Source of the DNA: an uncultured Bacilli bacterium
Lineage (GTDB): Bacteria > Bacillota_I > Bacilli_A > RF39 > UBA660
NCBI GenBank assembly: GCA_944350365.1
Contig: CALVOU010000006.1
Span: 1-43,683, forward strand
DNA: 43,683 bases
Direction of reading: 5' to 3'
The notes beneath the pieces were generated by a model that was not told the origin of the DNA, ran no database searches, and worked only from the letters and a program-made list of their open reading frames with translations. A program made the position numbers and the translations under genes. Numbering within the stretch: position 1 is the first letter of the stretch; every line of letters begins with the position of its first letter. Positions 3,427 to 24,867 of the stretch are shown here, one piece after another.

Positions 3427-3618
3427 ATGAAAAACGAGGAAAAAGATGAGTAATATAATATTTCTTTTTTAGAGAGCTAAGGGGTGGTGGAACTTAGTAA
3501 GAAAATTATATGAAGCTACTTTGGAGTTGAGTTTATCCGGTAAAACCGTTATGAAAAAAAGATCTAAGTAGGATGGTACCGTGCTTATTCGCACTCCTAT
3601 ATTTAGGTCTTTTGTTTT
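3427..3618 (+). promoter_or_regulatory. T-box leader, alanine-specific
   Basis: The stem I landmarks are in order: a GATGAG k-turn element (3445-3450), AGAGAGC followed by GGTGG (3471-3490), and a specifier loop GAAGCTACT (3512-3520). The specifier codon is GCT (Ala) at 3515-3517. The antiterminator carries the T-box core TGGTACC at 3574-3580. Its variable base is T, which matches the A discriminator of tRNA-Ala. The competing terminator pairs 3561-3573 with 3595-3609, has an inner GTGC/GCAC helix (3581-3594) and ends in TTTTGTTTT (3610-3618). Uncharged tRNA-Ala should therefore switch on the genes downstream, which include alaS. Confidence 0.95.
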
Positions 3619-7933: not shown

Positions 7934-10900
7934 ATGTACAAAAAATTAAAACAATTCAAGCAGGATTTGCGGGTAATTGAAAAATACTATCGTTATTTGG
8001 TTAAGTTAACGAAAGATCACCAAGTAATTGGTGCTTTTAACGAATGGATACTCGATAATTATGCTTCGATATTGGAACATGAGAACATGGTTTTAGAATA
8101 TTATGGGGATGAAAAACTCATGTTATCTTCCAAAGAGAGTGGGGATGTTATTTGGAAGTGTTTAAGTACTTATCTTGAAGGCAGTCATTTTAAGATGTCT
8201 AAACGAAATTTAATTCGTTGTTTTTTACAATATCAAAAGAATAATAAAATGTTTTTCACTTATCGTGAACTATTATTGATTCGACCAATTCTATCGATGA
8301 TTGTTATTCATCAGACACGTTTGTTGTGTGACTTTGAACGACATACTTTAGAAGAGAAAAAACGAGCAGAAAAAGATATTGCTTATTTAGAAAAGAAATT
8401 ACAGAAAAATAAGAATGCGAATATTCATCAGTATATTACCATTCGTGAAGATATTATCGACTATCCGATTTATTTAGAATATTTAAATGAAAATCTTCAT
8501 CGTTTGAATCGTGAAGCTAGTACCCTTTTTTATGAATTAAATGAAAATTTGGAGAAGAATAATACCAATTTAAAGAAAGTGTTAAATGGGGTTTATCAAG
8601 ATCGGATCAGTAATAATTTGATTATCAGTAATTTGTTTCATATTTTGAAATTAAATGAGAATTTAAAACTTGAAACTTTGTATGAAGAAATTAGTGAGAC
8701 AGAAAAAGAATTAAATACAGATAAGATCTATAAAGCTATGGATTCTGATACTAAAGCTAGTTATCGTAATCAAATAATTAAGTTAGCTAAAAAGAAAAAA
8801 ATCAGTGAGTTGACTTATGCGAGAAGGTTAGTAGCTAAGGGAGAAAAAGAAAAACAACATATTGGATTTTATCTATTTAAAGAACCAAACATTAAGGTTA
8901 GAGAAGTTGCTTATGTGACGACGATTGTTGTTTTGACAACGGTAATTTCTTATTTTTTAGGAAGACTGTTGACACCTTATTGGTTCCTTGGACTTTTCAT
9001 TTTATGGTTTCCAACTTCTGAGTTAGTTATTCAGGTCATTAATCAGTTTTTAATTCGAATGTTTAGACCTAAAGCTCTTCCGAAAATGGATTATTCAAAA
9101 GGTCTAAAAGAGGAAACTCCCGTTATGGTTGTTATTCCTACGATTTTAAAAGATACGAAAAAGATCGATGAGATGTATCGGAATTTAGAGTCTTGTTACT
9201 TGGCCAATAAAACTAAGCATTTATATTTTACATTGTTAGGGGATTGTAGTGAGCAAAAACAACCAGTCGTTAAATTAGATGATGAAGTAGCTAGTTATGG
9301 GGTAGAGAAAGCCAATGAATTAAACCAGAAGTATCATGCTAATATTTTTTATTTTGCGTATCGTAATCGTGTATGGCATGAAAGTGAAGAGTCATATCTT
9401 GGATGGGAAAGAAAAAGAGGGGCACTAATTCATTTTAATTATCTTTTGCTTCATAAATTTTCTAAACAAGATAAAGAAAAATATTTTCGTGTAGAAACTG
9501 TTTCTCAAGTAAAAGAAAAAATTAAATATGTTATCACGTTAGATGCAGATACTAAATTAGTCGTCAATAGTGTAACTGATTTAGTGGGTACGATGAATCA
9601 TCCATTAAATCGTCCAGTCTTGAATAAAGAACGAAATAAAGTTATTCGTGGTTATGGGATTATTCAACCTAAATTAAGTGTCGATGTCGAATCTTCAAAT
9701 AAGTCAATGTATGCAGAGTTGTTTGCTGGATTAGGTGGATTTGATGTCTACAATACATTAGTTTCTAATTTTTACCAAGATGTTTTTCATGAAGGTAGTT
9801 TCATGGGAAAAGGAATCTATGATTTAAAAACATACGATGAAGTACTTGATCATCGATTCCCAGAACAATTGATTTTAAGTCATGATTTAGTAGAAAGTAA
9901 CCTTCTTCACAGCGGTTATACGTCCAATATCGAATTGTTTGATGATTTTTGCAGTCGCTATTTGACGGATATGACAAGACATCATCGCTGGATGAGAGGA
10001 GATGTACAAGTTACTCCATGGTTATTTTCTAAAGTGAGAGATGGGCGAGGAAACAAGTATCATAATCCGATGACTTTAATTGAAAAATGGAAGATATTTG
10101 ATAATATTCGTCGTAGTTTTATTGAATTTTTCTTACTACTCATCTTATTGATTGCTTATTTCAATAGTCATATTAGTCTTACTTGGTGGGGCTTATACAT
10201 TATTTTAATTATCGCTTTACCAGTCATCTTCTATTTAGTTGAAAAATTACGTCATCAGTTTAATCGTAAAGTTAAAGTAAAACCATATACCAATATCATC
10301 AAGAGTGGAGAAGCTGTTATTATTAGAACCGTTATTTCTTTTACAACGATTCCTTATAAAGCCGATTTGTATTTTAACGCAACAGTAAAATCTCTTTATC
10401 GAATGTTGATTAGTAAAAAGAAATTATTAAATTGGTTGACGGCTGAAGAAGCAGAAAAGACAGTGAAAAATACACTTACCAATTATATTGAAAATTTTAG
10501 ACCTAATTATGTTGTGATTGCGGTACTTATTGTCTTTACTTATTTATTTCAAAATCAGAATCTAGTTTCCGCTATGTGTATCAGTTTAGCTTTCGCTTTG
10601 GCGCCTTATATTACTTATTATATTAGTAAAGAATCTAGACGAAGTAGATTTCAACTTGGACAAGGTGAAAGATCAGAATTTAGAGAACTTGCTTATCGGA
10701 CATGGAAGTTCTTTGAAGAAAATTTAAATGAGGAGAATCATTATCTTATTCCTGATAATTATCAAGAAAATCGAGATATTAAAGCCGATAACAAAACATC
10801 ACCTACCGATATTGGTTATTCACTAACTTCAGTAGTAGCTGCTTACGAATTAGGTTTTATTCGTCATGAAAAAGCATTGTTTTATTTAGAACATATTTTG

Positions 10901-13900
10901 GATACTGTCGAACAGTTAGATAAGTGGCATGGACATTTATATAATTGGTACAACACTGAAAATTTGAAGGTTTTATTTCCTCACTTTATATCTAGTGTCG
11001 ATAGTGGTAACTTTGTGGCTTCTTTGATTGTCGTAAAGGAATTTTTACTAAAAGTAAAAGAAGATAATCTAGCGAAAACGGTTAAGAAAATGATCGATGA
11101 TACTGATTTTTCTAAGCTATATACGGAAGACGATGTATTTAGTGTTGGGTATAATGACTTAGAAAATGAATTATCGGTTTATAAATATAATCGCTTTGCG
11201 AGTGAGAGTAGACTACTTAGTTATGTAGCGATCGCAAAAGGGGATGTACCTAGTAAACATTGGTTCTGTTTAGATAAGACATTAACGAAGTTTAAGCTAC
11301 ATAAAGGCTTAGCTTCTTGGGCAGGATCTTTATTTGAGTATTATATGCCATTAATTTTTATGAAGTCTTACCCAAATACTTTGTTAGATGAGAGTTATGA
11401 TTTTGCTTATGTTTGTCAACGGGCTTATATGAGAGAAAGAAAACCGAATTATCCATGGGGTATTTCGGAATGTGCTTACGATGAATTGGATAACGGGATC
11501 AATTATAAATATAAAACATTCTCAATTCCTTATTTAAAGTTACAGGAAGTAATTGATGATCGAATTGTCATTTCTCCTTATAGTTCGATGTTAGTAGTGA
11601 CGGAAAAACCAAAGGAAGTTTACCATAACTATCAACGGTTAAAGAAATTAAAGATGGAAGCGAAATATGGTTTGTATGAATCTTTTGATACGGAAACTAA
11701 TCGTCCTGTTTATGCGTACTTTTCTCATCATCAAGGTATGATTTTAGCTTCTCTTACCAATTATTTGACAGATGGTATCATTCAAGATTTATTTATGAGT
11801 GATACGAATAATCAAGCATTTGAAATTTTAACGAAAGAAAAGATTCAACTTAATCCAGTTATCGATTGGAAGATTGCGAAATATAAACGTTTCAACTATC
11901 AGAAAGAAGTAGTTGAAAATGATATGCGTTACTTTACTTATCCTTCTGCCATACCTGAAGTTTCTGTTATTTCTAATGGAAAATATACGGTTTTAATGAA
12001 TGATCGTGGAGATGGGTTTAGTCGTTATAAGGAACTTCAATTAAATCGTTATCGTAAGGTGACGGAACAGGACTATGGTACTTTCTTGTATTTAAAAGAT
12101 GTTAAGTCGGGAAAGACTTGGTCGAATACTTTCGCTCCAATAAATAAAAAGCCTGAAAAGTATGAAGTTGTATTCGCATCAGACCGACTCAAATATGTTT
12201 TGGTGGAAGATGAAATCGCAACGACGACGGAAATTGTAGTTAGTACAATTCATCAAGCGGAAATTCGTAAAGTAACGATCAAAAACAATAGTAAAGATAT
12301 TCGTACTATCGAACTAACGACTTATTTGGAACCAACCGTTATCGAAAATGCTAGTGATGTTACGCATCGAACATTCAACAGTTTATTTTTAGATAGTGAA
12401 TTTGATGCAGATACTGAGTCATTAATTATGAAGAAAACGGTACGAAATAGTGATAATCATTATTATTTACTTCATCGTTTATATGTTCCTGAACGAATAG
12501 AAGAGTATAGCTACGAAACAAGAAGAAATCTCTTTATTGGTCGAAATCATACAGCTAAAGATCCAATTGCTTTGTTCCAGAAACTTTCTAATAAAGTGGG
12601 AACACCAATTGATCCAGTCATGAGTATGCGTAATCGGGTAGTGATTGAACCAGAAGAGATGATGGAAGTATATATCTTAAATTGTTTTGGAACTAGTCGA
12701 AAACAAGTAATCGAAGCCGTTAAACATTATGAAGATCCACTAAAGATTGAAGAGGCATTTGAAGTAGCTACCATTACTAATGTCAATAGTATGAAAAAAC
12801 TAAATATTAATGGTGAAGATATGCGTCTTTATAATGCGATGCTTAATTACTTATATCAGACAAGTAGAATTAACATTAATGATGTGAGAAAAGAATTTCT
12901 TAAGAAAAATCAACTTTCTCAAGAAAACTTATGGAAGTTTGGTATTTCTGGAGATCGTCCGATGATTACACTAACGATTCATGATATTAATTCTGTCAGT
13001 TTAGCCAAACAGGTATTAAAAGCGTATGAGTATTTTAAAAATAAAGGAATTTATGTCGATGTTATCTTAATTAATGCAGAAGAAAATCCTTACGATAAGA
13101 GTTTAAAGAAGGAAATTGATTTTACGATTTATCAAATTCAAAAGACTAATTCTTTTGGTGGAAGACCGGGTAATATTTATTATATTGAACATGAAGATCT
13201 TACTCCTGAAGAAGAAATTTTATTAAATACAGTCGCTCGTCTTCGTTTAGATAGTCGGGAAACTTCTTCCTTAAAAGCTTATATCGATGAATTACAAAGT
13301 CAAAATAGTGCTAGTAATTATAAGATGATTAAGAAGCAAGATACGATTAAGATTCCGTTTGATGAGAAAGAACTTTCTTACTTTAACGGTTATGGTGGCT
13401 TTACTAAGGATGGTAAGGAGTATGTTATTTTGAATCCTAATACACCAACACCTTGGACGAACGTCTTAGCTAATTCTCATTTTGGTTCTTTGGTTACCAA
13501 TAATGCGGCGGGATTTACTTATGCGTATAATAGTCAAGATTTTAAACTTACTTCTTGGACGAATGATATTGTTTCTTTCGATCAATCAGAAGGCGTTAGA
13601 ATTAATCATGAAAGTTTTATGCCGGTTATCACAAGACATGGTTTTGGTTATACTACTTTCTTAAGTGAAACAGAAAACTTTAAGGAAGAGTTAACGGAGT
13701 TTGTTGCCCTAAAAGAAAATGCTAAATTATATCGATTTACGATTACCAATAAAGATGAAGAAGATGAAGTTTTACTTACTTTTTGGATGAATCCAGTATT
13801 AGGAAATCTCGAGGAGAAAACGAGTAGATATCTTTTGGTAGATGAACACGAAAAAGAAAACTATTTAACGATACGTAATGTTTATCAGAAAGAGTATCGT

Positions 13901-15616
13901 AATCAACAAGTCTTTTTGACTAGTACTGAAAAAATTCATCATATGAATACGAATCAGATTCTTGTTAAATCGATCGATGTGAAGCTTCCTCTTAAGAAGA
14001 ACGAAACAAAGACAGTTGGGTTCTTGCTTGGATGTTGTTCAACCAAAGAAGAAATTGGTCGTGTGATCAATCACTTTAAAGATGTAGTTAGTATAGATAA
14101 CAAGTTTGAAGAAGTTAAATCTTATTGGCAGAATCGTCTTGGTAAAGTTCAAGTAGAAACACCAGATGATAGCTTTAATTACATGGTTAATGGTTGGTAT
14201 TTATATCAGACACTTGCTTCCAGAGTAACGGCTCGAGCTGGCTTCTATCAAGTTAGTGGAGCATTTGGTTATCGTGATCAATTACAAGATTCTATTAATG
14301 TATGTCCGGTTTATCCTGAAGTTACTCGTCGTCAAATTTTAAATAATGCTAAACATCAATTCGCAGAAGGGGATGTTCTCCACTGGTGGTTAGAGCCAAA
14401 GAACTTTGGATTAAGAACTCGCTTTAAAGATGATTATTTATGGTTAGTTTATGCGACAAGTGAATACTTAAAATATACTTCAGATACTGAGATTTTATTT
14501 GAAAAAGTTCCGTTTGTGGTCGGAGATGTGTTGAATGATTACGAAGAAGAAAAGGGAGTAAGCTTTACTTTCTCTGAACATGATGAAACTTTATATGAAC
14601 ATTGTCGTTTAGCGATCGAGAGAACACTTAATGATTTAGGTAAACATGGTTTACCAAAAATGGGTGGTGGCGATTGGAACGATGGTATGAATAAGATCGG
14701 TATTCAAGGATTAGGAGAAAGTGTTTGGTTAGGTTTCTTCTTCTATGATTTACTTGAACGATTTATCCAAATCACTAAAATCTATAATCCAAATCTTGAT
14801 ATTTCTCGTTATCAGGAAGCAAGAGAAAAATTAAAGAATCATTTGAATAAAGATGCTTGGGATGGCGAATACTATTTAAGAGCTTTCTTCGATAATGGCG
14901 AGGCAGTTGGTTCTCTTCACAGTGAAGAATGTAAGATAGACTTAATTTCACAGAGCTTTTCTTTCCTTTCTAGTGTAGTTCCAACAGAGAGAAAACAAAG
15001 TGTTTTAGATGCCGTCGAACATCAATTAGTGGATAAGAAGACGGGTATTGTTAAACTTCTTACTCCTGCCTTTAAAAACTCTAAAAATTATCCAGGTTAT
15101 ATTATGGATTATCCAGTTGGTGTTAGAGAAAATGGTGGTCAATATACGCATTCAGTAGCTTGGTATATTATGGCTTTACTTAAAGAAAATCGCTTTGATG
15201 ATGCTTATGAGATCTATCAGATGGTAAATCCAATTCAACATTCTAAAACCGATAAAGAAGTGGAAACTTATATGGTAGAACCGTATGTAATCGCTGCAGA
15301 TATTTATTCTAACCCAGATCATAAAGGTCGTGGTGGTTGGACATGGTATACTGGTTCTAGTGGTTGGTTTTATCGAGTTGGATTAGAATATATTTGTGGA
15401 TTTACTCCTCGAGGAGAAGAATTAGAGATTACTCCACATATGCCAACTAAATGGACAGAAATTAAAATTAATTATCATTATTTGGATACTATTTATCAGA
15501 TTGTTGTATCTAAAGAAGAAAAATCCAAGATAATCGTGGATGGAAAAAAACAAGATAAGATTCTCTTGGTGAATGATGGAAAAACTCACCAAGTAGAAAT
15601 AGGGGTGGATAAATGA
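7934..15616 (+). CDS. Cyclic beta-1,2-glucan synthase-like protein (GT84-glycoamylase-GH94)
   Basis: At 2560 residues this is the largest gene here. Order of parts: a helical N-terminal region with many charged residues (1-320), a membrane pair (about 325-368), a GT-A type glycosyltransferase domain of the GT84 kind with LDADTKL (about 535) and RHHRWMRGDVQ (about 682), then membrane segments at about 725-768 and 857-897. A glycoamylase-like domain (about 900-1290; SVDSGNF, YPWGISECAYDELDNG, SHHQGMI) and GT36/GH94 super-sandwich regions follow. The catalytic GH94 barrel carries GGGDWNDGM (the first Asp of that motif at about 2247). This is the architecture of Agrobacterium and Brucella NdvB/Cgs (about 2800 residues), in which GT84 polymerises beta-1,2-glucan from UDP-glucose and the GH94 part sets chain length by phosphorolysis. 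Linkage and cyclisation are inferred from the family only. Confidence 0.9.
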   Translation: MYKKLKQFKQDLRVIEKYYRYLVKLTKDHQVIGAFNEWILDNYASILEHENMVLEYYGDEKLMLSSKESGDVIWKCLSTYLEGSHFKMSKRNLIRCFLQYQKNNKMFFTYRELLLIRPILSMIVIHQTRLLCDFERHTLEEKKRAEKDIAYLEKKLQKNKNANIHQYITIREDIIDYPIYLEYLNENLHRLNREASTLFYELNENLEKNNTNLKKVLNGVYQDRISNNLIISNLFHILKLNENLKLETLYEEISETEKELNTDKIYKAMDSDTKASYRNQIIKLAKKKKISELTYARRLVAKGEKEKQHIGFYLFKEPNIKVREVAYVTTIVVLTTVISYFLGRLLTPYWFLGLFILWFPTSELVIQVINQFLIRMFRPKALPKMDYSKGLKEETPVMVVIPTILKDTKKIDEMYRNLESCYLANKTKHLYFTLLGDCSEQKQPVVKLDDEVASYGVEKANELNQKYHANIFYFAYRNRVWHESEESYLGWERKRGALIHFNYLLLHKFSKQDKEKYFRVETVSQVKEKIKYVITLDADTKLVVNSVTDLVGTMNHPLNRPVLNKERNKVIRGYGIIQPKLSVDVESSNKSMYAELFAGLGGFDVYNTLVSNFYQDVFHEGSFMGKGIYDLKTYDEVLDHRFPEQLILSHDLVESNLLHSGYTSNIELFDDFCSRYLTDMTRHHRWMRGDVQVTPWLFSKVRDGRGNKYHNPMTLIEKWKIFDNIRRSFIEFFLLLILLIAYFNSHISLTWWGLYIILIIALPVIFYLVEKLRHQFNRKVKVKPYTNIIKSGEAVIIRTVISFTTIPYKADLYFNATVKSLYRMLISKKKLLNWLTAEEAEKTVKNTLTNYIENFRPNYVVIAVLIVFTYLFQNQNLVSAMCISLAFALAPYITYYISKESRRSRFQLGQGERSEFRELAYRTWKFFEENLNEENHYLIPDNYQENRDIKADNKTSPTDIGYSLTSVVAAYELGFIRHEKALFYLEHILDTVEQLDKWHGHLYNWYNTENLKVLFPHFISSVDSGNFVASLIVVKEFLLKVKEDNLAKTVKKMIDDTDFSKLYTEDDVFSVGYNDLENELSVYKYNRFASESRLLSYVAIAKGDVPSKHWFCLDKTLTKFKLHKGLASWAGSLFEYYMPLIFMKSYPNTLLDESYDFAYVCQRAYMRERKPNYPWGISECAYDELDNGINYKYKTFSIPYLKLQEVIDDRIVISPYSSMLVVTEKPKEVYHNYQRLKKLKMEAKYGLYESFDTETNRPVYAYFSHHQGMILASLTNYLTDGIIQDLFMSDTNNQAFEILTKEKIQLNPVIDWKIAKYKRFNYQKEVVENDMRYFTYPSAIPEVSVISNGKYTVLMNDRGDGFSRYKELQLNRYRKVTEQDYGTFLYLKDVKSGKTWSNTFAPINKKPEKYEVVFASDRLKYVLVEDEIATTTEIVVSTIHQAEIRKVTIKNNSKDIRTIELTTYLEPTVIENASDVTHRTFNSLFLDSEFDADTESLIMKKTVRNSDNHYYLLHRLYVPERIEEYSYETRRNLFIGRNHTAKDPIALFQKLSNKVGTPIDPVMSMRNRVVIEPEEMMEVYILNCFGTSRKQVIEAVKHYEDPLKIEEAFEVATITNVNSMKKLNINGEDMRLYNAMLNYLYQTSRININDVRKEFLKKNQLSQENLWKFGISGDRPMITLTIHDINSVSLAKQVLKAYEYFKNKGIYVDVILINAEENPYDKSLKKEIDFTIYQIQKTNSFGGRPGNIYYIEHEDLTPEEEILLNTVARLRLDSRETSSLKAYIDELQSQNSASNYKMIKKQDTIKIPFDEKELSYFNGYGGFTKDGKEYVILNPNTPTPWTNVLANSHFGSLVTNNAAGFTYAYNSQDFKLTSWTNDIVSFDQSEGVRINHESFMPVITRHGFGYTTFLSETENFKEELTEFVALKENAKLYRFTITNKDEEDEVLLTFWMNPVLGNLEEKTSRYLLVDEHEKENYLTIRNVYQKEYRNQQVFLTSTEKIHHMNTNQILVKSIDVKLPLKKNETKTVGFLLGCCSTKEEIGRVINHFKDVVSIDNKFEEVKSYWQNRLGKVQVETPDDSFNYMVNGWYLYQTLASRVTARAGFYQVSGAFGYRDQLQDSINVCPVYPEVTRRQILNNAKHQFAEGDVLHWWLEPKNFGLRTRFKDDYLWLVYATSEYLKYTSDTEILFEKVPFVVGDVLNDYEEEKGVSFTFSEHDETLYEHCRLAIERTLNDLGKHGLPKMGGGDWNDGMNKIGIQGLGESVWLGFFFYDLLERFIQITKIYNPNLDISRYQEAREKLKNHLNKDAWDGEYYLRAFFDNGEAVGSLHSEECKIDLISQSFSFLSSVVPTERKQSVLDAVEHQLVDKKTGIVKLLTPAFKNSKNYPGYIMDYPVGVRENGGQYTHSVAWYIMALLKENRFDDAYEIYQMVNPIQHSKTDKEVETYMVEPYVIAADIYSNPDHKGRGGWTWYTGSSGWFYRVGLEYICGFTPRGEELEITPHMPTKWTEIKINYHYLDTIYQIVVSKEEKSKIIVDGKKQDKILLVNDGKTHQVEIGVDK

Positions 15617-16812
15617 AATTAAATACGGATTACGTGAGAGGCTATAGTTATGTGACTAGTGATGAACAAAAGAAATTAGATCAAATTCAAAAAAGCATAG
15701 AAGAGAAGACTTCTATGCTTGATTGGATTGATATAGAAACTTGTATTTCTAAACAGGAAAAGGATCGAATTAAAAAGATCGCTAAGCAGATTAGAGAAAA
15801 ATATCAGGTAGCTATTGTGATTGGTATCGGTGGTTCTTATCTAGGTAGTAAAGCGGTTATCGAAAGCTTATTTCCTTACTTTGATAAGAACAGGGAAACG
15901 GAAGTTTTATTTGCTGGATATCAATTATCTTCTACTTATTTAAAGGAATTACTTCAATATATAGAAGATAAAGAAGTTTGTTTAGTAGTAATTTCTAAAT
16001 CTGGTGGTACTTTAGAGCCAGCGGTTAGTTTTGAGGTATTAAAGAATTATTTAAAAACGAAAACTTCTTCTTATTCTGAACGTATTTTTGTGATTACTGA
16101 TAAGGATAGTGGTGTATTACGAAGAGAAGCACAAGAAGAAGGCTATGTTTCTTTTGAAGTTCCTAAAAATATAGGTGGTAGATATTCTGTTTTGAGTGCG
16201 GTTGGGTTATTACCGATTGCGATTAGTGGAATTGATATCGACAAGTTATTAAAAGGCGCTAGTAGTATGCGGGATTGCTTTAAAGAGACAAGTATGTTGG
16301 CTACTATTCGTGATCGTTTAGAATATGTAGGTAAAAATGTCGAAATGGTAACGATATATGAAGAGAAACTTACATCACTTGCGATGTGGTATCAACAACT
16401 ATTTGCTGAAACCCAAGGAAAAAATCATAAAGGCATTTTACCAGTTGTGAATCCGAATACGACGAATTTACATTCTGTGGGTCAGTATCTTCAAGAAGGA
16501 ACAAGAAATGTATTTGAAACGGTAATTCGTATCAAGAAGAGTGATGACTTGTTCTTAGATAAGTATAAAATAGATATGCATGAATTAAATAATTTAGTCA
16601 TAGAACAAGTAGCTAAAGCGCATCTCAAAGGAGATACACCAAGCATTATTCTTGAACTTGAAGAATTATCTCCCTATTATTTAGGCCAATTGATTTATTT
16701 TCTAGAGATGACTGCGGCTATCGGTGGCTATTTACTCGATGTTGATCCTTTTGATCAGCCTGGTGTTGAAGAGTACAAAAAGTTGGTTAATGAAAAGTTA
16801 GAAGAGTTATAA
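15613..16812 (+). CDS. pgi: Glucose-6-phosphate isomerase, compact form
   Basis: The enzyme interconverts glucose 6-phosphate and fructose 6-phosphate. Family signatures are clear: GIGGSYLGSKAVIESL, SKSGGTLEPAVSFEVL, NIGGRYSVLSAVGLLP, SVGQYLQEGTRNVFETV and DPFDQPGVEEYK. At 399 residues it is about 50 shorter than the Bacillus type, with a short N-terminal lead and a trimmed C-terminus after the DQPGVEEYK helix. The phosphate loop reads SKSGGT where SKSGTT is usual. The ATG at 15613 overlaps the glucan synthase stop in ATGA, so the two are translationally coupled. It may be the only pgi of the organism or a copy dedicated to glucan metabolism; the window cannot tell. Confidence 0.93.
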   Translation: MKLNTDYVRGYSYVTSDEQKKLDQIQKSIEEKTSMLDWIDIETCISKQEKDRIKKIAKQIREKYQVAIVIGIGGSYLGSKAVIESLFPYFDKNRETEVLFAGYQLSSTYLKELLQYIEDKEVCLVVISKSGGTLEPAVSFEVLKNYLKTKTSSYSERIFVITDKDSGVLRREAQEEGYVSFEVPKNIGGRYSVLSAVGLLPIAISGIDIDKLLKGASSMRDCFKETSMLATIRDRLEYVGKNVEMVTIYEEKLTSLAMWYQQLFAETQGKNHKGILPVVNPNTTNLHSVGQYLQEGTRNVFETVIRIKKSDDLFLDKYKIDMHELNNLVIEQVAKAHLKGDTPSIILELEELSPYYLGQLIYFLEMTAAIGGYLLDVDPFDQPGVEEYKKLVNEKLEEL

Positions 16813-16906: not shown

Positions 16907-17023
16907 ATGAGGAAAGTTAAGAAAATGTCTCTTGTGGTAGTTGGTATAATTATATTAGTTGTCATTGCTAGTATAAGTCTATTTTTCTTAAATGCAAGAG
17001 AGAGAAATAATGATAAAAAGTAG
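16907..17023 (+). CDS. Small single-pass membrane peptide (38 residues)
   Basis: An ATG at 16907, with GGAAG 6 bases upstream, opens a 38-residue frame. It has a basic start (MRKVKKM), one strong membrane helix rich in V, I and L (about 8-27) and a charged tail ending NDKK. A -10-like TATAAT lies at about 16876-16881, although the candidate -35 (TTGCTT) is only 15 bases upstream. A hairpin with T residues follows at 17082-17110. The positive-inside start and a terminator after it favour a real gene, possibly a regulatory or membrane-stress peptide. It has no recognisable family and could also be a remnant at the island border. Confidence 0.5.
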   Translation: MRKVKKMSLVVVGIIILVVIASISLFFLNARERNNDKK

Positions 17024-17081
17024 TGATAGTAACAATAATCGTGACAGTAATTACATTGCTACTCCATCCATATTCTTTGAA

Positions 17082-17110
17082 GACGGGCATTTGTCCGTCA
17101 TTTTTATTTA
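17082..17110 (+). terminator. Terminator after the small membrane peptide
   Basis: A GACGGGC/GTCCGTC stem (17082-17088 with 17093-17099, one G-T pair) with a 4-base loop is followed by ATTTTTATTT. It is GC-rich against its surroundings and is a convincing terminator. Confidence 0.75.
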
Positions 17111-17126
17111 TATGTATTTAATTATA

Positions 17127-17155
17127 TTGACTTTTAAATGATTAAATAATAGAAT
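17127..17155 (+). promoter_or_regulatory. Putative promoter of the phosphotransfer island
   Basis: TTGACT (17127-17132) and TAGAAT (17150-17155) are separated by 17 bases, each one base from consensus. The start would be near 17162, giving a leader of about 108 bases before the ATG at 17270. Confidence 0.65.
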
Positions 17156-17206
17156 ATTGGTAAATTTTGAGAATTTTGTTTTCTATGAAAAATATTATCT
17201 AGAGGG

Positions 17207-17230
17207 TCAAAAAGATATTTTACTTTTTGA
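17207..17230 (+). promoter_or_regulatory. Hairpin in the island leader, possible attenuator
   Basis: TCAAAAAG (17207-17214) pairs perfectly with CTTTTTGA (17223-17230) and is followed by TTTT. It lies between the putative promoter and the first gene of the island. It is AT-rich, so stability is modest, and the T run is short. Confidence 0.35.
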
Positions 17231-17269
17231 TTTTCCTTATAAATTTGCAATATTAATGAGAGGTACAAT

Positions 17270-18396
17270 ATGGTCTATAAAATTAAACAGAATACTTTAA
17301 TAAAGAAGATTTATAAAGATATAGGCAGGAAATTCGATAAAGTTATTTATATAAATATTCAAAACTTTTCAATTAATGGTTGTGCAATTTATCAAAATAG
17401 AAAATGCTTTTTTAAAATAACAGATGAAGAATATTTTATTAAAGAAATTAATGGTTATCTTATTTCTTACAAAGAGATTCCTACTATGACCATATTATTT
17501 GTAAAGCATTTATCCCATTGCAAAAAATATTTAATTGCGTATAATTTAATAATAAAATAAAAGAAAACAGCGGTTTATTAAATGATATACTTGTAAAAAA
17601 CGATAAAATTAATATAATGGATAAATCAGTAGATAGTGAACTTAAAAAAATTTTAAACGTTTATAATACTATTTATAGCGGAAAAAAAGTATTTAGAAGT
17701 TATTGTCCTAGCAATATATTCTTTGTTGAAAGAATATATTCAAGACTGGATAAATGGTATATGAGTTGTAGTGATTTTAAACGTTTGGTTATACTAAATG
17801 GTAATTACAAGTTTAATTTACAGAGAATTTTAGAAGAGACAAAAGAATATTTTTTAAATAATGAAAATAAGAAACAACAATGTATTTTATGTCAGGGTGA
17901 TCCTAATACTTTAAATATTTCCACAACACCATGTTTTTTTGATTTAGCAACTGCTGGTTATAATCCTATAATTGGTGAATTAGCAATTACAATTATATCT
18001 ACTTTAATTTATGACAATTATTTTTGCCCAAAATATCATAGTAAATCGTACTATTTACATGAACTTGCTATTGAACAGTCAAGTCTATTCGAGCCTAATT
18101 TATATTATAAATATGACAAATCTAATATTTATATAGAGTCTAATATAATAACAAGTAATATAAGAAAAAGATATATTTTTGGCTATTTAGAAATTTTAAA
18201 GAAAAATAATATACATATAGGAAAAGAAATTAAATACTATATTATAATGAGATTATTATGTGTTTTTAATATTAGAAAAATGTTAAAAAAAGATTACTAT
18301 TATTCTCTATATTTAGTATGCTATTTTTATAAAAATATAGGTGATGACTTTTATAGATCTATTAGTGATATAATTAACGAAATGGAGTGTGTTTAA
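17270..18396 (+). pseudogene. APH-like phosphotransferase, split by a frameshift
   Basis: Two frames read as one kinase-like protein. The first (17270-17562, 96 residues, GAGAGG 8 bases before its ATG) looks like an N-lobe: KCFFKI carries a likely beta-3 lysine and is followed by an acidic helix. The second frame is open from 17545 and its first ATG is at 17617. It contains CQGDPNTLN and CFFDLATAG, the catalytic loop (Asp, then Asn five residues later) and metal-binding Asp of aminoglycoside phosphotransferase/choline kinase-like enzymes, with Q in place of the usual H. A +1/-1 shift within about 17545-17562, in an A/T-rich run, would fuse them into about 370 residues. It could be true decay, an assembly error in the A run, or programmed frameshifting. 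The natural substrate is unknown. Confidence 0.65.
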
Positions 18397-19083
18397 ATGA
18401 ATAATAATTATACGGATATAATTAATGATTACATAGAAAGATTAAAAAGAGCACTATATAATAATCTTGAATTAATTTATATAATTGGTAGTAGTGCTAC
18501 AAAGGATGTAATTGTTGGTTGGAGTGACATTGATTGTATTATTGTTATTAGTAATTATAATTTTAATGATATAGAGACTATTAAGAAAATTTCTAATAGT
18601 TATGATATTAAGATTGGTAATACAATTTATTCTAAAAATGAGTTTGAAAAGGGATTGTTAGATCAAAAAACTATATATTATCTTTTATTAAATCATGAAA
18701 AAATTTTAAATATTGATTATTCAAATTCGGATTTAAAAATACCAAGTGTTAATTATAATAATTGTAAAAATGTGACTAAATCAGTTCTTTTTAATGATTT
18801 ACATAATTGTAAGAGATTGTTAACATATATGAAATTAGATAGTGGACAAGTTAAATCTTTATTTAAAAAAATATATGTAATTATGAAATCAATTCTAATA
18901 TTACATAATTACAGACCGAAAAATTATAAGGAAACCTTTAATATGTTTAGTACTAACTTTAACTATGAATATTTTGATTACCTTAAATTTATAGAAGATT
19001 TTAAAATGAATCAAGTAGACGAAGAAAAGCTTAAAAATTATGCTTTTAAATTGATAGTATATGTTGTTAATAATATATTATAA
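18397..19083 (+). CDS. Pol-beta-type nucleotidyltransferase
   Basis: The 228-residue protein has the minimal nucleotidyltransferase motif near its start: GSSATKD (31-37), then WSDIDCIIV with Asp 44 and Asp 46. This is hG[GS]...DxD, which binds metal and NTP. The rest is helical and has no further domain I recognise. Members transfer NMPs to antibiotics, proteins or other small molecules, and some act as MNT antitoxins next to HEPN toxins, but no HEPN partner is visible here. The ATG follows the stop of the split kinase directly, and the gene shares the island's A/T-rich codon use (many ATA, AGA and AAT). The substrate is unknown. Confidence 0.8.
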   Translation: MNNNYTDIINDYIERLKRALYNNLELIYIIGSSATKDVIVGWSDIDCIIVISNYNFNDIETIKKISNSYDIKIGNTIYSKNEFEKGLLDQKTIYYLLLNHEKILNIDYSNSDLKIPSVNYNNCKNVTKSVLFNDLHNCKRLLTYMKLDSGQVKSLFKKIYVIMKSILILHNYRPKNYKETFNMFSTNFNYEYFDYLKFIEDFKMNQVDEEKLKNYAFKLIVYVVNNIL

Positions 19084-19111
19084 TTCATATTTTAGAAAGG
19101 AGAAAGTAATA

Positions 19112-20257
19112 ATGGAGATACCAAGGCAGTTTGATGATTTTGTAACATTTTTTGATGTTGGAATAGAAATGATTAATCAAGAACAGTTTAGAACTTTGTA
19201 CTGTGTTATGTCTGAGACAGTGAAGAAAAGAAATAATATTACAAGATTAGCATTACAATATCTATTAGATAAAGAGAAACTTACGCAAAAAGAAAAAAAT
19301 ATTGCAATAACTATACTTGATGATAGTTATTATCAGAAATCTAATAGATATGAACATTGTAAACTATGTTCTGATGATTTTAATAGAGAAATACTAGCAA
19401 AATATAGTAATAGATTTAAGTTTTGGGAATTATGTTTTCCTACTGTTCCATATTTTCCTGCTAATATGATGATATATTTAAAAAATAGACAACTTTGTCA
19501 TAAAGAAAATCTTCAAGATTTAACAATAGAAGAACTAGAGGAATTAAAATGTATTATAAGCGATTTAAAGGAAATCTTAAATAATAATGTATTCAATGGT
19601 GAACTTACGGGTATAAACGTTTTGTTTAATCAAATATCTAAATCACAATTATGTATTCATGGACATATAGAGTTGATGATAAAAAATATTGATAAATTAA
19701 ATTATGGATGTACTTTACTTAAATCTAGAAATTATGATCCTGTCGTTGAGAAATTAAATAATAAAATGAAAAGAAAAATAGGAGTTATACCAACATTAGA
19801 AGGTATTAGAATAAATATGAATATTGTTGGTGATAAAATAGCGTTAGATTATATAAATGAATATGAAAATAATTTATTAGATATTATAAGATTAGGTAAT
19901 GAATTAAGAAAGGGACAGCAAAAAGTAAATAATGATTTTGATATGCTATTGTTGAATGGCTTGAGTCCAGCACCTACAGATTCAATATATTTAACTGATT
20001 ATAGAGGAGAGTTGTTTTTATCAGCTATTCCTGAAATTATACCACCAACTATTAATATTTCTGAGATTGGAGATTTAAATGATGCAGAAAATATGTATTT
20101 AATTAAATATAATGCTACAACGCCTAATAGTAGATATGCAATTATGAAAAAGTATAGCCCATTAGTTAGACCAAGTAGCAAAGTGCCTTATGAAATGCCA
20201 TATACCGAAAATGTAAAAGTGTTGAAAAGAAAGGTAGGTGATGCATTAAATATATGA
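19112..20257 (+). CDS. HIT/GalT-like nucleotidyl-transfer protein
   Basis: I place the start at 19112, preceded by AAAGGAG; a frame reaching back to 19061 overlaps the nucleotidyltransferase and is unlikely. The 381-residue protein has a CKLC pair (Cys 83 and 86) like the zinc site of galactose-1-phosphate uridylyltransferase. The stretch LCFPTVPYFPANMMIYL follows, and then CIHGHIELMI with His 183 and His 185, matching the histidine motif of the HIT superfamily. This suggests a hydrolase, phosphorylase or transferase acting on a nucleoside phosphate bond through a His intermediate. The C-terminal half (190-381) has no recognised domain. Its stop overlaps the next ATG in ATGA, so it works in a coupled unit with the kinase and phosphatase downstream. 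The assignment rests on motifs only. Confidence 0.6.
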   Translation: MEIPRQFDDFVTFFDVGIEMINQEQFRTLYCVMSETVKKRNNITRLALQYLLDKEKLTQKEKNIAITILDDSYYQKSNRYEHCKLCSDDFNREILAKYSNRFKFWELCFPTVPYFPANMMIYLKNRQLCHKENLQDLTIEELEELKCIISDLKEILNNNVFNGELTGINVLFNQISKSQLCIHGHIELMIKNIDKLNYGCTLLKSRNYDPVVEKLNNKMKRKIGVIPTLEGIRINMNIVGDKIALDYINEYENNLLDIIRLGNELRKGQQKVNNDFDMLLLNGLSPAPTDSIYLTDYRGELFLSAIPEIIPPTINISEIGDLNDAENMYLIKYNATTPNSRYAIMKKYSPLVRPSSKVPYEMPYTENVKVLKRKVGDALNI

Positions 20258-21777
20258 AAACTGATGAGTTGGTTTATGATAAAACTTTAAAAGAAATGCT
20301 TCTTGAATATATAGAAGAATTAGATACTTTTATTATTAATGCAAATGGATATCCAACTTCAAATTGTCAAACCAAAGGAGAAGTAAATGGTGTTTTCTTC
20401 AAAAAGTTAAATACAACAAAAATTGAGAAACTTTATAGTGGTGACTATTTATCGTTGTTTAATGAGTATTATAATTTGTTACAAGGCAGAGTAAAAACGA
20501 ACAAAATTATAGCGATGCTGTATAAAGATAATGATATTTTTGAATTTTCACAGTTAATTGCTGAAGAAAAGTTTTTAGATAATGCTAATATTTTTCAATG
20601 GGATGATATAAGCAATCTTTTTGATGTAATTCTATCGGAAATTAATGCTTGTATTAATTATAACAGAAGTAGTAAAATAAAGTTGGGAATTGAAACAGCG
20701 ATTTGGAATTTTACAATAGATGGTATTCTTTTTGATTTAGATCCACCCAAACTATTAAAGGAAACGGAAGACACAAGTTTTACTAGAAAAGAAGATATTA
20801 ATCATATTAAAAGAACAATTTATCGTAGTTTTGATGAAACTGGAATGAAAACTAACTTGCTTGTTACTTTGATATTAGGCGAAAAACACAATAGTTTTAT
20901 TATAAAGAATAAGCCTAATAATTATTTAATAATTCTTTTAAAAAAAATCCTTGATAGTTATGATAGAGAAGAAGATAGAAAAAAATTAGTCGAAGACTTA
21001 TACAATGGTGTATCTGTAAATGAGATATTTGTAGATCATCCTATAGAAATTTTAAGAAGGGAGCTTATGATGAGAGAACGAGGTATGAATAAAGAAATAG
21101 TATTTGTCGCTGGTACTTCCGAGTCTGGAAAAAGTGGAGGAATAAACTATTTAAGAGATAAATACGATGAAATTCAACATATAAAAATAAGAGATGTTTT
21201 TCCTAAAGTGTATGAAGATACTCAAACAAGTCTATCTTTTGAAGAGTGGCAAGATTTTGAAGAAAAAAGAGATTTAAATAATTTTTGGAGATTATTTATA
21301 AATAAAGTTTATGAAATGATTAATCCTGAAAAAAGTATTATAATTTTAGACACAATGTACGGTGTAAATGGGATGATGGAGTTATATAAAATATTGTGTG
21401 ATAAAGTTAACTTATTATATATTGATGCTCCATTCAATGATATAGTTATGAGGGAGTATTCGAGATTAAGAACAGATTCTCTAAGAGGTACAAGAAAAGC
21501 AGATTTATCAATAACGATAGAAGACGTAGTAGAAAGAACAATTAAAAAAGATAAGAATAAAAATAGCAGAGGTGCTAATAAATTAAAGGAGTTACGTTAT
21601 AGCTTGGACTATAAAAGTTTAGAAATAGGTGGCTTAGGAGAGCAATTTACTTATTTAATTAATAATGATGGTAATATTGATGACTTTTATTCATCTTTAG
21701 ATAAATATATTAATCATATAAAAAATAAAAGTAATGATAAATCAGATGTAAAGTTACAAAAGAGGCTGAAAAAATGA
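20254..21777 (+). CDS. Fusion of a kinase-like (APH-type) domain and a P-loop kinase
   Basis: The 507-residue protein has two parts. Residues 1-270 look like an APH/protein-kinase-like domain: ETAIWN (Glu 147, Asn 152) then FDLDPPK (Asp 161). The spacing matches the catalytic and metal-binding residues of APH enzymes, but the catalytic Asp is Glu and the preceding His-Gly is missing, so it may be inactive. Residues 280-480 begin with IVFVAGTSESGKSGG (Lys 293), a Walker A motif, then IIILDTMYG (Asp 366) and an Arg-rich lid-like RLRTDSLRGTRKAD, typical of small-molecule or nucleotide kinases. It overlaps its neighbours by 4 bases on both sides. It probably phosphorylates the pathway's small-molecule substrate, but which one is not visible. 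Confidence 0.65.
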   Translation: MKTDELVYDKTLKEMLLEYIEELDTFIINANGYPTSNCQTKGEVNGVFFKKLNTTKIEKLYSGDYLSLFNEYYNLLQGRVKTNKIIAMLYKDNDIFEFSQLIAEEKFLDNANIFQWDDISNLFDVILSEINACINYNRSSKIKLGIETAIWNFTIDGILFDLDPPKLLKETEDTSFTRKEDINHIKRTIYRSFDETGMKTNLLVTLILGEKHNSFIIKNKPNNYLIILLKKILDSYDREEDRKKLVEDLYNGVSVNEIFVDHPIEILRRELMMRERGMNKEIVFVAGTSESGKSGGINYLRDKYDEIQHIKIRDVFPKVYEDTQTSLSFEEWQDFEEKRDLNNFWRLFINKVYEMINPEKSIIILDTMYGVNGMMELYKILCDKVNLLYIDAPFNDIVMREYSRLRTDSLRGTRKADLSITIEDVVERTIKKDKNKNSRGANKLKELRYSLDYKSLEIGGLGEQFTYLINNDGNIDDFYSSLDKYINHIKNKSNDKSDVKLQKRLKK

Positions 21778-22295
21778 ATTTAACATTTTTAAGACATGGA
21801 ACAACTGACTTGAATGGAAAAGGATTAATTGCTACAAAGTTAGATTATTCTTTAAATGATAATGGTAAAAAACAATGTATAGAAAATATTTTTGCAAAAA
21901 ATGATTTTAGTACAGTTTATTCTTCACCTTATAAAAGGACTTTGGAAACTGCTCGACTTGTTTATCCATATAGTGAACCTATTATAGTACCCTGTATTGT
22001 ACAACGTGATTTAGGCATATTAAATGAAAAATATAAAAAAGATTATACCAGAGAATATTTAAATTTGGTTAGGGAATATATAGTTAATCCTGAGGGTGCT
22101 GAAACGTTAAACGATATAATGATTAGATTAGATTGCTTTTTTGATTACGTTAGACTTAATAGTAGTGATGATGATAATGTTTTAGTAGTTACTCATAATG
22201 GCATTATGAGAATAATAAAGAAGTATTATATGAATGAAACAAATAATATAGAAAGTGAAAATCTAGGAAAATTCACTTTGACTTTAAAGAAGTAA
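21774..22295 (+). CDS. Histidine phosphatase family protein
   Basis: The 173-residue protein is a short histidine phosphatase (phosphoglycerate mutase superfamily). It has FLRHGTTDLNGKG at the start (catalytic His 8), SSPYKRTLETA (phosphate-binding Arg) and VVTHNGIMR near the C-terminus (second His). Such small members remove phosphate from sugars, nucleotides or cofactor intermediates, like CobC or PhoE types. It begins inside the stop of the kinase fusion (ATGA), so it belongs to the coupled trio 19112-22295. A kinase and a phosphatase in one unit suggest two steps of one pathway. The substrate is unknown. Confidence 0.88.
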   Translation: MNLTFLRHGTTDLNGKGLIATKLDYSLNDNGKKQCIENIFAKNDFSTVYSSPYKRTLETARLVYPYSEPIIVPCIVQRDLGILNEKYKKDYTREYLNLVREYIVNPEGAETLNDIMIRLDCFFDYVRLNSSDDDNVLVVTHNGIMRIIKKYYMNETNNIESENLGKFTLTLKK

Positions 22296-22299
22296 GATA

Positions 22300-22442
22300 A
22301 TGAAAAAAATTATAATAATAGGTAGTTTTAGAAATTCGGTAGGTATTGAAAAAATTTGGTTGATAATTATAATGTAATAATCATTGATAAAATTAAAAAA
22401 CTGATTATTGTTGTTGTGGTATTTCTTAAAGTCTTAAGTTAA
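22300..22442 (+). pseudogene. Broken short gene at the end of the island operon
   Basis: Four bases after the phosphatase stop an ATG opens MKKIIIIGSFRNSVGIEKI, which looks like the first beta strand and loop of a Rossmann-like protein. That frame stops at 22377. A second frame (22362-22442) continues in a protein-like way with DNYNVIIIDKIKK and then a hydrophobic strand. The pair reads as one decayed gene with a frameshift near 22355-22362. A nucleoside deoxyribosyltransferase-like origin is only a guess. Confidence 0.4.
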
Positions 22443-22818
22443 AACGTGTTTATCGGAGAAAAGTGTAATAAAATATGCGTATTAATCAACGGTGTTAGGA
22501 TACAAATTTTTTCATCTTTTGAAAAATGAATTGCAATAAACTATTAATGCTGACTATTTTTTGTATTTGTAATATGGTTTATATTGTATATAAAATTGTG
22601 GATAAAGATTTTGCAGTTTTAAATATTTCATCTGTTCATTTAAATGAGATAAGTGTTAATGAATATGTCTACACTTTTAATGATATCTTAAAAGTCATAT
22701 TTAATTTGAACAAATTGCTATTTTCTGTTTTACAACAGTAAATGATTCTCTCATTATATAAGAGGGAGCCTATTTACATTGGAAGAAGTTTATTCTGAAT
22801 AATAGAGGTGATTGTTAT
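22443..22818 (+). other. Gap between the broken gene and the NUDIX gene
   Basis: A 71-residue frame (22526-22741) is open here but has no ribosome binding site, and its product, rich in I, V, Y and N, matches nothing I know. It may be the remains of the gene broken upstream. A weak CTCTC/GAGGGAG hairpin lies near 22745-22767. No clear promoter is seen before the NUDIX gene. Confidence 0.4.
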
Positions 22819-23316
22819 ATGCGAGAAAGTATAAAAATTAAAACTGAAAATTATAATTTTAAGTTTAGAGTGTCCGGATTAATTATTAAAAAAAATAAAA
22901 TTTTGTTGGTTGATATGGATAATAGTGGGTTCCTTTGTTTGCCTGGTGGTTATGTAGAACTAGGTGAAACAACAGAGCTTGCGATTAAACGAGAGTTGTT
23001 AGAAGAAGTAGGAAAAAGGTTTGATATTAGTAAATATTTAGGTGTAGTGGAAAATTATTTTATAAATAAATATTCTAAAAAAATGCACGAGATATCTTTC
23101 TATTATTTAATGATTCCTATAGAAAAAATAGATGCTAATAATTTTACTATTATTGAAAATGATAAAAATCATACAATAAAATTAGATTTTAAGTGGGTTG
23201 ATTTAAAAGATATAAATAATTATGATATTAGACCTAGTTTTCTTAAACGAATTTTAGAAAGCGGAAATCTTGAGTTTAATCATTTGATTTTTAATGAGTT
23301 AGATATAGACCTTTAG
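22819..23316 (+). CDS. NUDIX hydrolase
   Basis: The 165-residue protein has a complete Nudix box: GYVELGE (44-50), then RELLEEVGK (58-66), fitting GX5EX7REUXEEXGU, preceded by FLCLPGG. It should hydrolyse a nucleoside diphosphate linked to some group X; specificity cannot be read from the sequence. AGAGGTGA precedes the ATG. It lies about 520 bases after the phosphatase and shares the island's base composition, so it may belong to the same system or be an independent passenger. The protein ends with a short acidic tail. Confidence 0.9.
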   Translation: MRESIKIKTENYNFKFRVSGLIIKKNKILLVDMDNSGFLCLPGGYVELGETTELAIKRELLEEVGKRFDISKYLGVVENYFINKYSKKMHEISFYYLMIPIEKIDANNFTIIENDKNHTIKLDFKWVDLKDINNYDIRPSFLKRILESGNLEFNHLIFNELDIDL

Positions 23317-23886
23317 GTTTTATAATAAACTGAGGATTATTTGAGTATGTAAATGCAGGGGATGCAGAAGCTTTTTTCTAGAAATAAGGAAATAATATTT
23401 TGCATTAGCTTCCAAAATTAAATCTCCGCTTGTTGTCAAAAAAATAATAAACTAAGAGAAAAAAGTATTTCATTTTGAGAATTTTTATTAAGTAAAAAAA
23501 TAGTTGAGAGAAAAATAATGATGTTCTTTCTTTTTAATAACACAATTTTGTACAGGGTAAGTAATAAGGATTTCCTTTTTTCTTTAATTTATTGTATAAA
23601 AGAAAATACGATTTTAAAGTATATATGAAGAAAAATTGGAAAAAATAAATTGATCTATTTTTGTAATTTGAGAATCTTTAAGGCGATGTATTACTAAGTT
23701 AGTAAATAATGTATATTTATTTTGGTACGATGAAAAGAGAATATTAAAACGTGTGTATTAAGTAGGAAAAATGCTTGTTATAGAAAATTATGTGAAGTTA
23801 ATTGCCATAAAAAAGTAAAATATTTAAACAATGGAAATAGGTTGTTAAGCTGTATCAAGCGGAAATACATTTTAATGGTCATTTTT
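23317..23886. other. Gene-free AT-rich stretch at the right edge of the island
   Basis: About 570 bases without any frame of useful length on either strand, no tRNA and no clear terminator. Base composition is like the island. It is probably decayed sequence. Confidence 0.5.
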
Positions 23887-23964: not shown

Positions 23965-24867
23965 ATGTATAATCAGTTTTTAGAATACTTAAAAAGTAAC
24001 GATCCTGAAGAGGTTATAAGCAAAAATGGAATTAGAGTGAGAAAGATAGTTAATCCACTTCTTCGTATAGGGGCTAGGCCAACTGGTCATTATCGTTTTA
24101 AACTTGAAAAAAGAGCTAAAATGCCTAAGAATGTGCCTATTATATATGCACCTACTCATGGCTTTAAAGACGATTTTTTATATACCTTGTCAGTAATCAA
24201 TGATCATGCCTATGTTTTGTTTGGAAGTTTGCCTCAATTTTATCATACAATTGATGGTATTGCCTCTTGGATAAATGGCTCTATTATTGTAGATAGAGAA
24301 GACCCTGAAAGTCGTCATGCTTCGATTGAAAAGATGAAAAGGGCAATTGAGTTAGGTTCAAATTTAACAGTTTTTCCAGAAGGTGTTTGGAATAAGGAAG
24401 AGTGTCTTTTGATTTTAAAACTATATTCTGGAATTTATAAAGTAGCTAAAGAAACAGGTGCTTGGGTTGCTCCAGTTGCAACGCACGTTGAAAAAGATAC
24501 TTGTTATGGAAGCTTAGGAGAAGCCTTTGATATTTCCAAGTATTCAGAAAAAGAAGGTTTACAAGTATTAAGGGATAAAATGGCAACTTTAAAATTTGAA
24601 TTGATGGACAAGTATTCCCATTATTCTAGAAAAGATTTAGTAAAAGAAAATCCCAATTTACATGAATATTGGAAAGATTATATCGATAGCTTAATCGCTC
24701 AAGTAGATTATTATGATCACGAAGTTGAGAATAAAGCAATGTATAAAGATCCTAACGAACCCAATGAATTAGATGTGTTCTTACCTGTTGCGAAAAGTGT
24801 AAAATTGACTAAAGATAACGCTTATGTGATGTCTGGAGTAAAACAAATAATAAAGAAATATAATTAG
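23965..24867 (+). CDS. PlsC-like acyltransferase (1-acylglycerol-3-phosphate acyltransferase family)
   Basis: The 300-residue protein has the acyltransferase signatures of the PlsC family: HGFKDD (the HX4D motif, catalytic His and Asp), a middle block with GSIIVDRE, FPEGVWN in the place of FPEGTR, and a final APVATHV block. It likely moves an acyl chain onto a lysophospholipid or a related alcohol at the membrane face; no clear membrane helix is seen, and the substrate is open. The last 80 residues are charged and variable. GAGGGG precedes the ATG. It is transcribed alone, from a strong promoter to a terminator that overlaps its stop codon. It marks the return to ordinary chromosome after the island. 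Confidence 0.8.
   Translation: MYNQFLEYLKSNDPEEVISKNGIRVRKIVNPLLRIGARPTGHYRFKLEKRAKMPKNVPIIYAPTHGFKDDFLYTLSVINDHAYVLFGSLPQFYHTIDGIASWINGSIIVDREDPESRHASIEKMKRAIELGSNLTVFPEGVWNKEECLLILKLYSGIYKVAKETGAWVAPVATHVEKDTCYGSLGEAFDISKYSEKEGLQVLRDKMATLKFELMDKYSHYSRKDLVKENPNLHEYWKDYIDSLIAQVDYYDHEVENKAMYKDPNEPNELDVFLPVAKSVKLTKDNAYVMSGVKQIIKKYN

Follow-up and report, generated by a model that had tools for sequence, protein, structure and literature searches.

The window analysed here is a 43,683-nucleotide stretch of DNA from an uncultured Bacilli bacterium of the family UBA660 (order RF39; positions 1 to 43,683 of CALVOU010000006.1, contig C6 of a 1.47-Mb metagenome-assembled genome (MAG), GCA_944350365.1). 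Between positions 17078 and 23329 it holds a cassette of six genes that recurs complete in three other genera of the same family. The genes all lie on the forward strand and encode, in order, an APH-like kinase (APH1), a pol-beta-type nucleotidyltransferase (NTase), a GalT-like protein, a fusion of a kinase-like domain to a P-loop nucleoside monophosphate (NMP) kinase-like domain, a histidine phosphatase and a NUDIX hydrolase (Table 1); nearly all of these are types of enzyme that attach, shift or take off phosphate or nucleotide groups. We propose that this cassette is a horizontally mobile, modular operon that makes or modifies a phosphorylated, nucleotide-activated small molecule, perhaps a sugar-like one, a reading to which we give roughly an even chance. 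Taken singly, the enzymes fall into known superfamilies. Their six-gene combination is undescribed in every library searched, as the initial annotation of the window had suspected: no Pfam, NCBIfam, PHROGs, PADLOC or Rfam model covers it, and literature searches found no paper on it.

Conservation and selection of the cassette

A genome scan with the fusion protein recovered locus L002 (MAG contig CALVZF010000001.1), and a second search within the order added more distant copies; the genome samples comprised under 2,000 genomes, mostly of one class or phylum. L002 carries the six genes in the same order with the first kinase intact at 375 aa, and two further loci, L014 (G545) and L016 (G552), are likewise complete, identically ordered and intact in their first kinase. 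L015 (G574) holds the last five genes, with its NTase cut off by the contig end, and its order matches as far as the contig extends. The initial annotation had treated the GalT-like, fusion and phosphatase genes (19112-22295) as one functional unit joined by two ATGA overlaps. Both overlaps are real (20254-20257 between GalT-like and fusion genes, 21774-21777 between fusion and phosphatase genes), and the trio stays together in every full copy, so the refutation foreseen for it, a lack of conservation elsewhere, fails; the unit itself, at 17078-23329, is larger and takes in all six genes.

Amino acid identities run parallel across the genes, at about 0.90 between L002 and the window, 0.84-0.88 between L014 and L015, and about 0.90 between two rearranged loci described below, L017 and L031; the same ranking gene by gene is expected of genes inherited together. 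The identity of L016 to the other copies is usually 0.51-0.57 (higher for NUDIX), and since L002, L014 and L016 keep the complete order at amino acid identities as low as 51-56%, its conservation goes beyond chance. For each of the five intact genes the ratio of nonsynonymous to synonymous substitution rates (dN/dS) between the window and L002 is 0.14-0.19, and by this measure every intact cassette gene is under purifying selection. In the window, APH1 is split into two frames (17270-17560 and 17617-18396) that form a single frame of 364-375 aa in L002, L014 and L016. Its two halves still show dN/dS of 0.06 and 0.21, and the break is therefore either recent or an assembly error. The frameshift, together with a non-coding segment ahead of the NUDIX gene, might be taken to mean that unrelated metabolic genes lie together here by chance, or that the cluster is in decay. 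We consider this barely credible: it is already contradicted by synteny, the order being kept in several contexts, and by the selection on all intact genes and on the halves of the broken one.

Table 1. Features of the cassette and its left border, in window coordinates.
Feature	Positions	Strand	Evidence
Host gene, 5' part, severed by insertion	16907..17068	+	Longer homologue in G647
Whole cassette	17078..23329	+	DNA homology limits against L002 (blastn); 22318-22779 not common to both
Intrinsic terminator-like hairpin at left cassette edge	17082..17099	+	7-bp stem and T run; 0.0 expected in shuffles; similar sequence in L002
Sigma-70-like promoter, TTGACT-17-TAGAAT	17127..17155	+	Consensus match only; same arrangement in L002
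5' leader with U-rich hairpin, possible attenuator	17163..17269	+	Fold z = -1.2 in window, -2.0 in L002 (weak)
APH1, APH-like kinase with one frameshift	17270..18396	+	Intact in L002, L014 and L016; GD-x4-N and later D motif
NTase, pol-beta-type small-molecule nucleotidyltransferase (MNT/ANT-like)	18397..19083	+	PF01909 E=8e-4, just below its cut-off
HIT/GalT-superfamily protein	19112..20257	+	H183-G-H185-I-E187 and HCxxC invariant (alignment A3); AlphaFold model pTM 0.80; Foldseek
Fusion, kinase-like (~1-277) and P-loop NMP-kinase-like (~278-507)	20254..21777	+	A9, A11; Foldseek/hmmsearch to AdkA-like 3lw7/3h0k
Histidine phosphatase, branch 1	21774..22295	+	PF00300 E=3e-22
Segment without open frame, window only (decayed gene or insertion)	22318..22779	+	Absent from L002 (blastn)
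NUDIX hydrolase with Nudix box	22819..23316	+	PF00293 E=6e-13; G-x5-E-x7-RE-x2-EE

Insertion site and horizontal transfer

The limits of the cassette emerge from two comparisons. Against L002, the window aligns at 91.3% identity over 17078-22317 and 87.7% over 22780-23329, and homology ends there. Against G647, a genome of the same genus that lacks the cassette between pgi and plsC, host homology runs up to 17068, inside a small host gene, and becomes convincing again only from 23965, with a weak match at 23694-23762. Because host homology ends at 17068 and cassette homology with L002 starts at 17078, the left junction is fixed to about 10 bp; the right junction, judged from the same alignments, is somewhere between 23329 and 23965. 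The left neighbour (15613-16812) we take from sequence inspection to be a glucose-6-phosphate isomerase-like gene (pgi), and the right neighbour (23965-24867) is an acyltransferase gene (plsC; PF01553). The GC content, 0.20-0.27 across 17-24 kb and 0.29-0.37 in nearly all flanking DNA, bears out the AT-richer block of the initial annotation, whose listed genes were all found at or very near the positions it had given. Its "broken gene" at 22296-22818 is a non-coding segment with no identifiable reading frame at 22318-22779, a stretch missing from the other copies; in L014-L016 just 13-17 bp separate the histidine phosphatase and NUDIX genes. No integrase gene lies within the cassette, no Rfam model matches in it, and the search for viral structural matches gave none at E<=0.001. 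Folding of the leader hairpin barely exceeds that of shuffled sequences in the window; beside this U-rich hairpin (17163-17269; about 6901-7015 in L002), where the folding signal is weak, lies a possible upstream frame of five codons.

Flanking genes differ from copy to copy, with recG and HTH genes around L002, thioredoxin-reductase-like and amidase genes around L014, a BRO gene at L015 and the pgi-plsC interval in the window (BRO, Abi_2 and HTH genes were named by Pfam, the remaining flank genes from sequence inspection). Synonymous divergence (dS) of the cassette between the window and L002, which represent two genera, is 0.20-0.45, and two host genes compared within the genus of the window gave 0.87 and 0.43. 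Since the between-genus dS of the cassette is no higher than the within-genus dS of host genes, the horizontal transfer was recent. Sequence comparison thus indicates that the cassette was acquired horizontally and moves among related gut-type bacteria as one unit. The GalT-like gene is found in 7 of the 291 sampled family genomes, each of a different genus, and phylum-wide samples yielded no strong GalT-like match outside the family. Weak matches in G221, G639, G653, G428 and G476 were short, with unrelated genes in the neighbourhoods of G221 and G653, and were rejected. For the GalT-like and fusion proteins, tblastn against plasmids and phages and searches of IMG/VR yielded no relatives; the plasmid searches also covered the window NTase and the APH1 of L002, and the IMG/VR search the latter.

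Several genes near the copies deserve mention. Downstream of the cassette in L002 (15219-16874, forward strand), inspection by eye suggests a macrodomain gene and, after it, a sirtuin-like (SirTM-type) gene. An Abi_2 abortive-infection gene (PF07751, 5e-42) lies less than 3 kb from the cassette in L014 (4380-5327, reverse strand). G552, which has the full cassette at L016, also carries a lone GalT-like paralogue at L018 (641-1783; G552:C87), flanked by a fragment of a transposase gene on one side and a Zeta-toxin-type kinase gene on the other.

Component enzymes

For three of the proteins, motifs or models are the basis of the assignment. APH1 has no Pfam or PDB-sequence match; its catalytic D211-x4-N216 and metal-binding D225 are invariant in four relatives. 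The NTase signature GS-x12-DxD is invariant in six copies. These two enzymes raise the question of antibiotic modification, in which APH- and ANT-like proteins would inactivate a drug and the rest of the cassette recycle the products or reverse the reaction, possibly under control of the leader hairpin. The promoter, the hairpin and the horizontal transfer would suit such a resistance cassette, as would weak matches of the NTase to ANT(4')-II, though at 13.4 bits these fall far below the cut-off of 350 and no curated resistance family, the aminoglycoside-modifying AAC, APH and ANT families included, was matched at its cut-off. Inactivation would need no six enzymes including a phosphatase, NUDIX and GalT, and the leader structure hardly beats shuffles. 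We therefore regard this explanation as improbable but still in contention.

The product of 19112-20257 is predicted to adopt a HIT/GalT fold with paired histidines. It matches no Pfam or NCBIfam family. Its structural model matched 3jb9_c (E 5e-5), which we take to be a Cwf19-like chain of the yeast spliceosome, as well as yeast Apa2, DUF4931, mycobacterial Ap4A phosphorylase and HINT; because whole-chain TM-scores are low, we claim only membership of the superfamily. The HGHIE and HCxxC motifs are similar to the active site and the zinc site of GalT, the third triad position being occupied by Glu. In the fusion protein, the C-terminal domain has the Walker A motif GTSESGKS and the fold of a P-loop NMP kinase (3lw7: hmmsearch E=1.2e-4, Foldseek TMt about 0.7), while the N-terminal domain appears kinase-like by motifs only (E/D-x4-N ... 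FDxDPPK, with E in the six-gene copies and D in L017 and L031). The two halves are separate, overlapping neighbour genes in L017 and L031. The catalytic motifs of the histidine phosphatase are invariant except for RHA in place of RHG in L016.

An NMP-kinase-like domain nearest to AdkA-like 3lw7, a NUDIX enzyme, a HIT fold and an NTase all handle nucleotides, and the cassette could accordingly be an operon for nucleotide salvage, nucleotide or metabolite repair, or RNA-end repair. It contains no nucleosidase, phosphoribosyltransferase, RNA ligase or PNKP-type phosphatase, however, and two APH-like kinases and a GalT-like protein fit such an operon ill, as does a patchy distribution unlike that of housekeeping salvage. 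This reading seems to us highly unlikely.

Rearranged relatives

More distant loci retain parts of the cassette in other arrangements. L017 and L031 keep the NTase, NUDIX, GalT-like, kinase-like and P-loop genes, with no histidine phosphatase beside these genes in the sequence examined. In L031 there is in addition an APH1 whose N-terminus is extended by 300 aa (5011-5922); the start of the extension (CHFACIYNMVKYFGI) looks by eye like BtrH-N/cysteine-peptidase-like domains and has no hidden Markov model (HMM) match. Directly upstream of the L017 NTase lie an ASCH protein, which matches PADLOC candidate model PDC-M11B at 2e-18, and a carbamoyltransferase C-terminal domain (E=1.2e-69). On p275D (L048), a conjugative Lactococcus lactis plasmid, one protein of 709-711 aa joins a P-loop kinase to an NTase (A6 profile 4e-11) and also matches NUDIX weakly. 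An APH1 in split form (A10 profile 9e-13) comes next, then a hexapeptide acetyltransferase. L050 (G166) encodes an SDR, a cupin-like protein, a HAD::APH1 fusion (A10 3.7e-26), a GT2::NTase fusion (GT2 7e-32; A6 1.1e-17) and a NUDIX protein (A8 1.7e-9). A 207-aa protein from the same locus (5634-6257, reverse strand), with NILKPDMIR near its start, is reminiscent of nucleoside diphosphate kinase and has no Pfam match.

From the gene content of these relatives, the lasting core is an NTase and a NUDIX enzyme with APH1, often with a P-loop kinase. The phosphatase alternates between the histidine and HAD types, and the tailoring enzymes vary. Adjacency and fusion suggest that the tailoring genes of L017, L048 and L050 are parts of the system. 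The initial annotation had found no glycosyltransferase, transporter or carrier gene. In the window the cassette indeed has no glycosyltransferase or tailoring gene; the rearranged relatives do carry them, in the form of the GT2::NTase fusion, the carbamoyltransferase C-terminal domain and other tailoring enzymes. It had also held that the sequence does not choose between a nucleotide-activated small-molecule pathway, nucleotide repair or salvage, and defence. The tailoring enzymes tip the balance towards the first, and the GT2, carbamoyltransferase domain and SDR led us to down-weight nucleotide repair, with defence keeping some probability.

In an anti-phage system, these enzymes would block phage through a modified nucleotide or a nucleotide signal that they produce, or by altering a nucleotide or RNA. 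The cassette is sporadic (7 of 291 family genomes, one per genus), mobile and compact, an Abi_2 gene lies within 3 kb of it in L014, and a Zeta-type kinase adjoins the lone GalT-like gene of L018. Candidate-defence models from PADLOC also match the NTase (PDC-M05A; 7e-6 in the window, 3e-7 in L017), the NUDIX protein (PDC-S07; 8e-10) and the L017 ASCH protein. However, PDC-M05 describes an NTase paired with HEPN (PMC12988326), to which the cassette shows weak similarity in the NTase domain; no HEPN gene was recognised in the cassettes, and none of the six NTases tested has the R-x4-6-H motif. The NUDIX model is generic, the only link to CBASS is a weak Cyclase match (5e-4) with no effector gene, and the cassette has no effector, sensor or nuclease. 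Housekeeping genes make up most neighbourhoods. We consider defence rather unlikely but a serious rival; the fit is poorer still for antibiotic modification and for nucleotide repair.

Proposed function

We favour a pathway of phosphorylation and NMP coupling because of the kinase/phosphatase pair (fused in G166), the GT-fused NTase, the GalT-like fold and the NUDIX enzyme. In the scheme that we propose, of which we infer every reaction and the order of the steps, the APH-like kinase would phosphorylate a small polar acceptor, which may be a sugar or a cyclitol. The NTase and/or the GalT-like protein might then add an NMP to that phosphate or shift an NMP between partners, with the GalT-like protein acting via a covalent NMP-His185 intermediate. 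The fusion protein could phosphorylate the NMP-bearing or a second-stage intermediate, the histidine phosphatase would take off a phosphate, and the NUDIX enzyme might hydrolyse a nucleoside-diphosphate linkage or unwanted by-products. In the relatives, the carbamoyl-transfer domain, GT2, acetyltransferase and SDR may tailor the same kind of intermediate.

Several points weigh against this proposal. Motifs are the basis of both APH-like assignments, APH1 and the fusion N-terminus, neither of which has a significant match to an HMM or a structure, and the N-terminal half of the fusion is modelled poorly (mean pLDDT 59.9 over the whole model). In all seven aligned homologues the GalT-like motif reads HGHIE and so departs from the canonical HPHGQ or HxHxH. 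The cassette matches no known sugar or nucleotide-sugar pathway and contains no transporter, carrier or export gene. The carbamoyltransferase of L017 lacks its Kae1-like half, and the tailoring genes of L017 and L048 are putative members that lie next to the core genes. Finally, the first gene is frameshifted in the window, whose cassette copy may be non-functional.

Comparison with known systems brings out partial likenesses. The bifidobacterial lnp (lacto-N-biose/galacto-N-biose) pathway combines the sugar-1-kinase NahK with GalT and GalE, so that an ATP-dependent sugar kinase structurally unrelated to galactokinase adjoins GalT in one cluster (PMC8106489). In contrast, lnp includes an ABC transporter, the phosphorylase GLNBP and GalE, whereas the six-gene copies have no epimerase, transporter or phosphorylase of a Leloir-type or NahK-GalT sugar pathway; no pol-beta NTase, NMP kinase, histidine phosphatase or NUDIX enzyme is named for lnp, and the GalT motif differs. 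Carbamoyltransferases that decorate secondary metabolites use a YrdC-like domain to adenylate carbamoyl phosphate (PMC9633730). Of the class III antibiotic carbamoyltransferases (TobZ/GdmN/NodU), L017 encodes the C-terminal domain, but a stretch that is ASCH-like by eye, with no Pfam match, replaces the N-terminal Kae1-like transfer domain, and the family is absent from the window. The GalT-like protein shares its fold with Ap4A phosphorylase, DUF4931 and HINT and differs from them in its low whole-chain TM-scores, the lack of a sequence match and the HGHIE triad. In the O-methyl phosphoramidate (MeOPN) capsule modification of Campylobacter, a small group is nucleotide-activated by a kinase, a nucleotidyltransferase, a hydrolase and a P-loop kinase. 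Compared by description, its enzymes are of other families, and no capsule genes lie beside the cassette.

More tentatively, the cassette and its relatives could represent an undescribed class of mobile small-molecule systems in Bacilli, including a conjugative Lactococcus plasmid, in which a kinase-NTase-NUDIX core builds an unusual phospho- or nucleotidyl-conjugate and swappable tailoring enzymes give different products for bacterial competition or against phage. Small and self-contained, the cassette is under selection in several genera, and its core enzymes are reshuffled, fused and joined to changing tailoring enzymes, as in modular biosynthetic or conflict systems. If the product is a nucleotide-linked metabolite, uncultured small-genome bacteria would offer, in this cassette, a new and compact source of such chemistry, and several unannotated families would gain functions (the GalT-like, kinase-like/NMP-kinase fusion and APH-like proteins). 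Since complete six-gene copies exist, it is directly testable.

Other features of the window

Elsewhere in the window, a T-box leader (RF00230, 100.4 bits) lies at 3428-3601 on the forward strand. The same strand encodes, at 7934-15616, a 2560-aa protein with GH94 and glucoamylase-like domains that resembles cyclic beta-glucan synthase and is very large for a 1.5-Mb genome.

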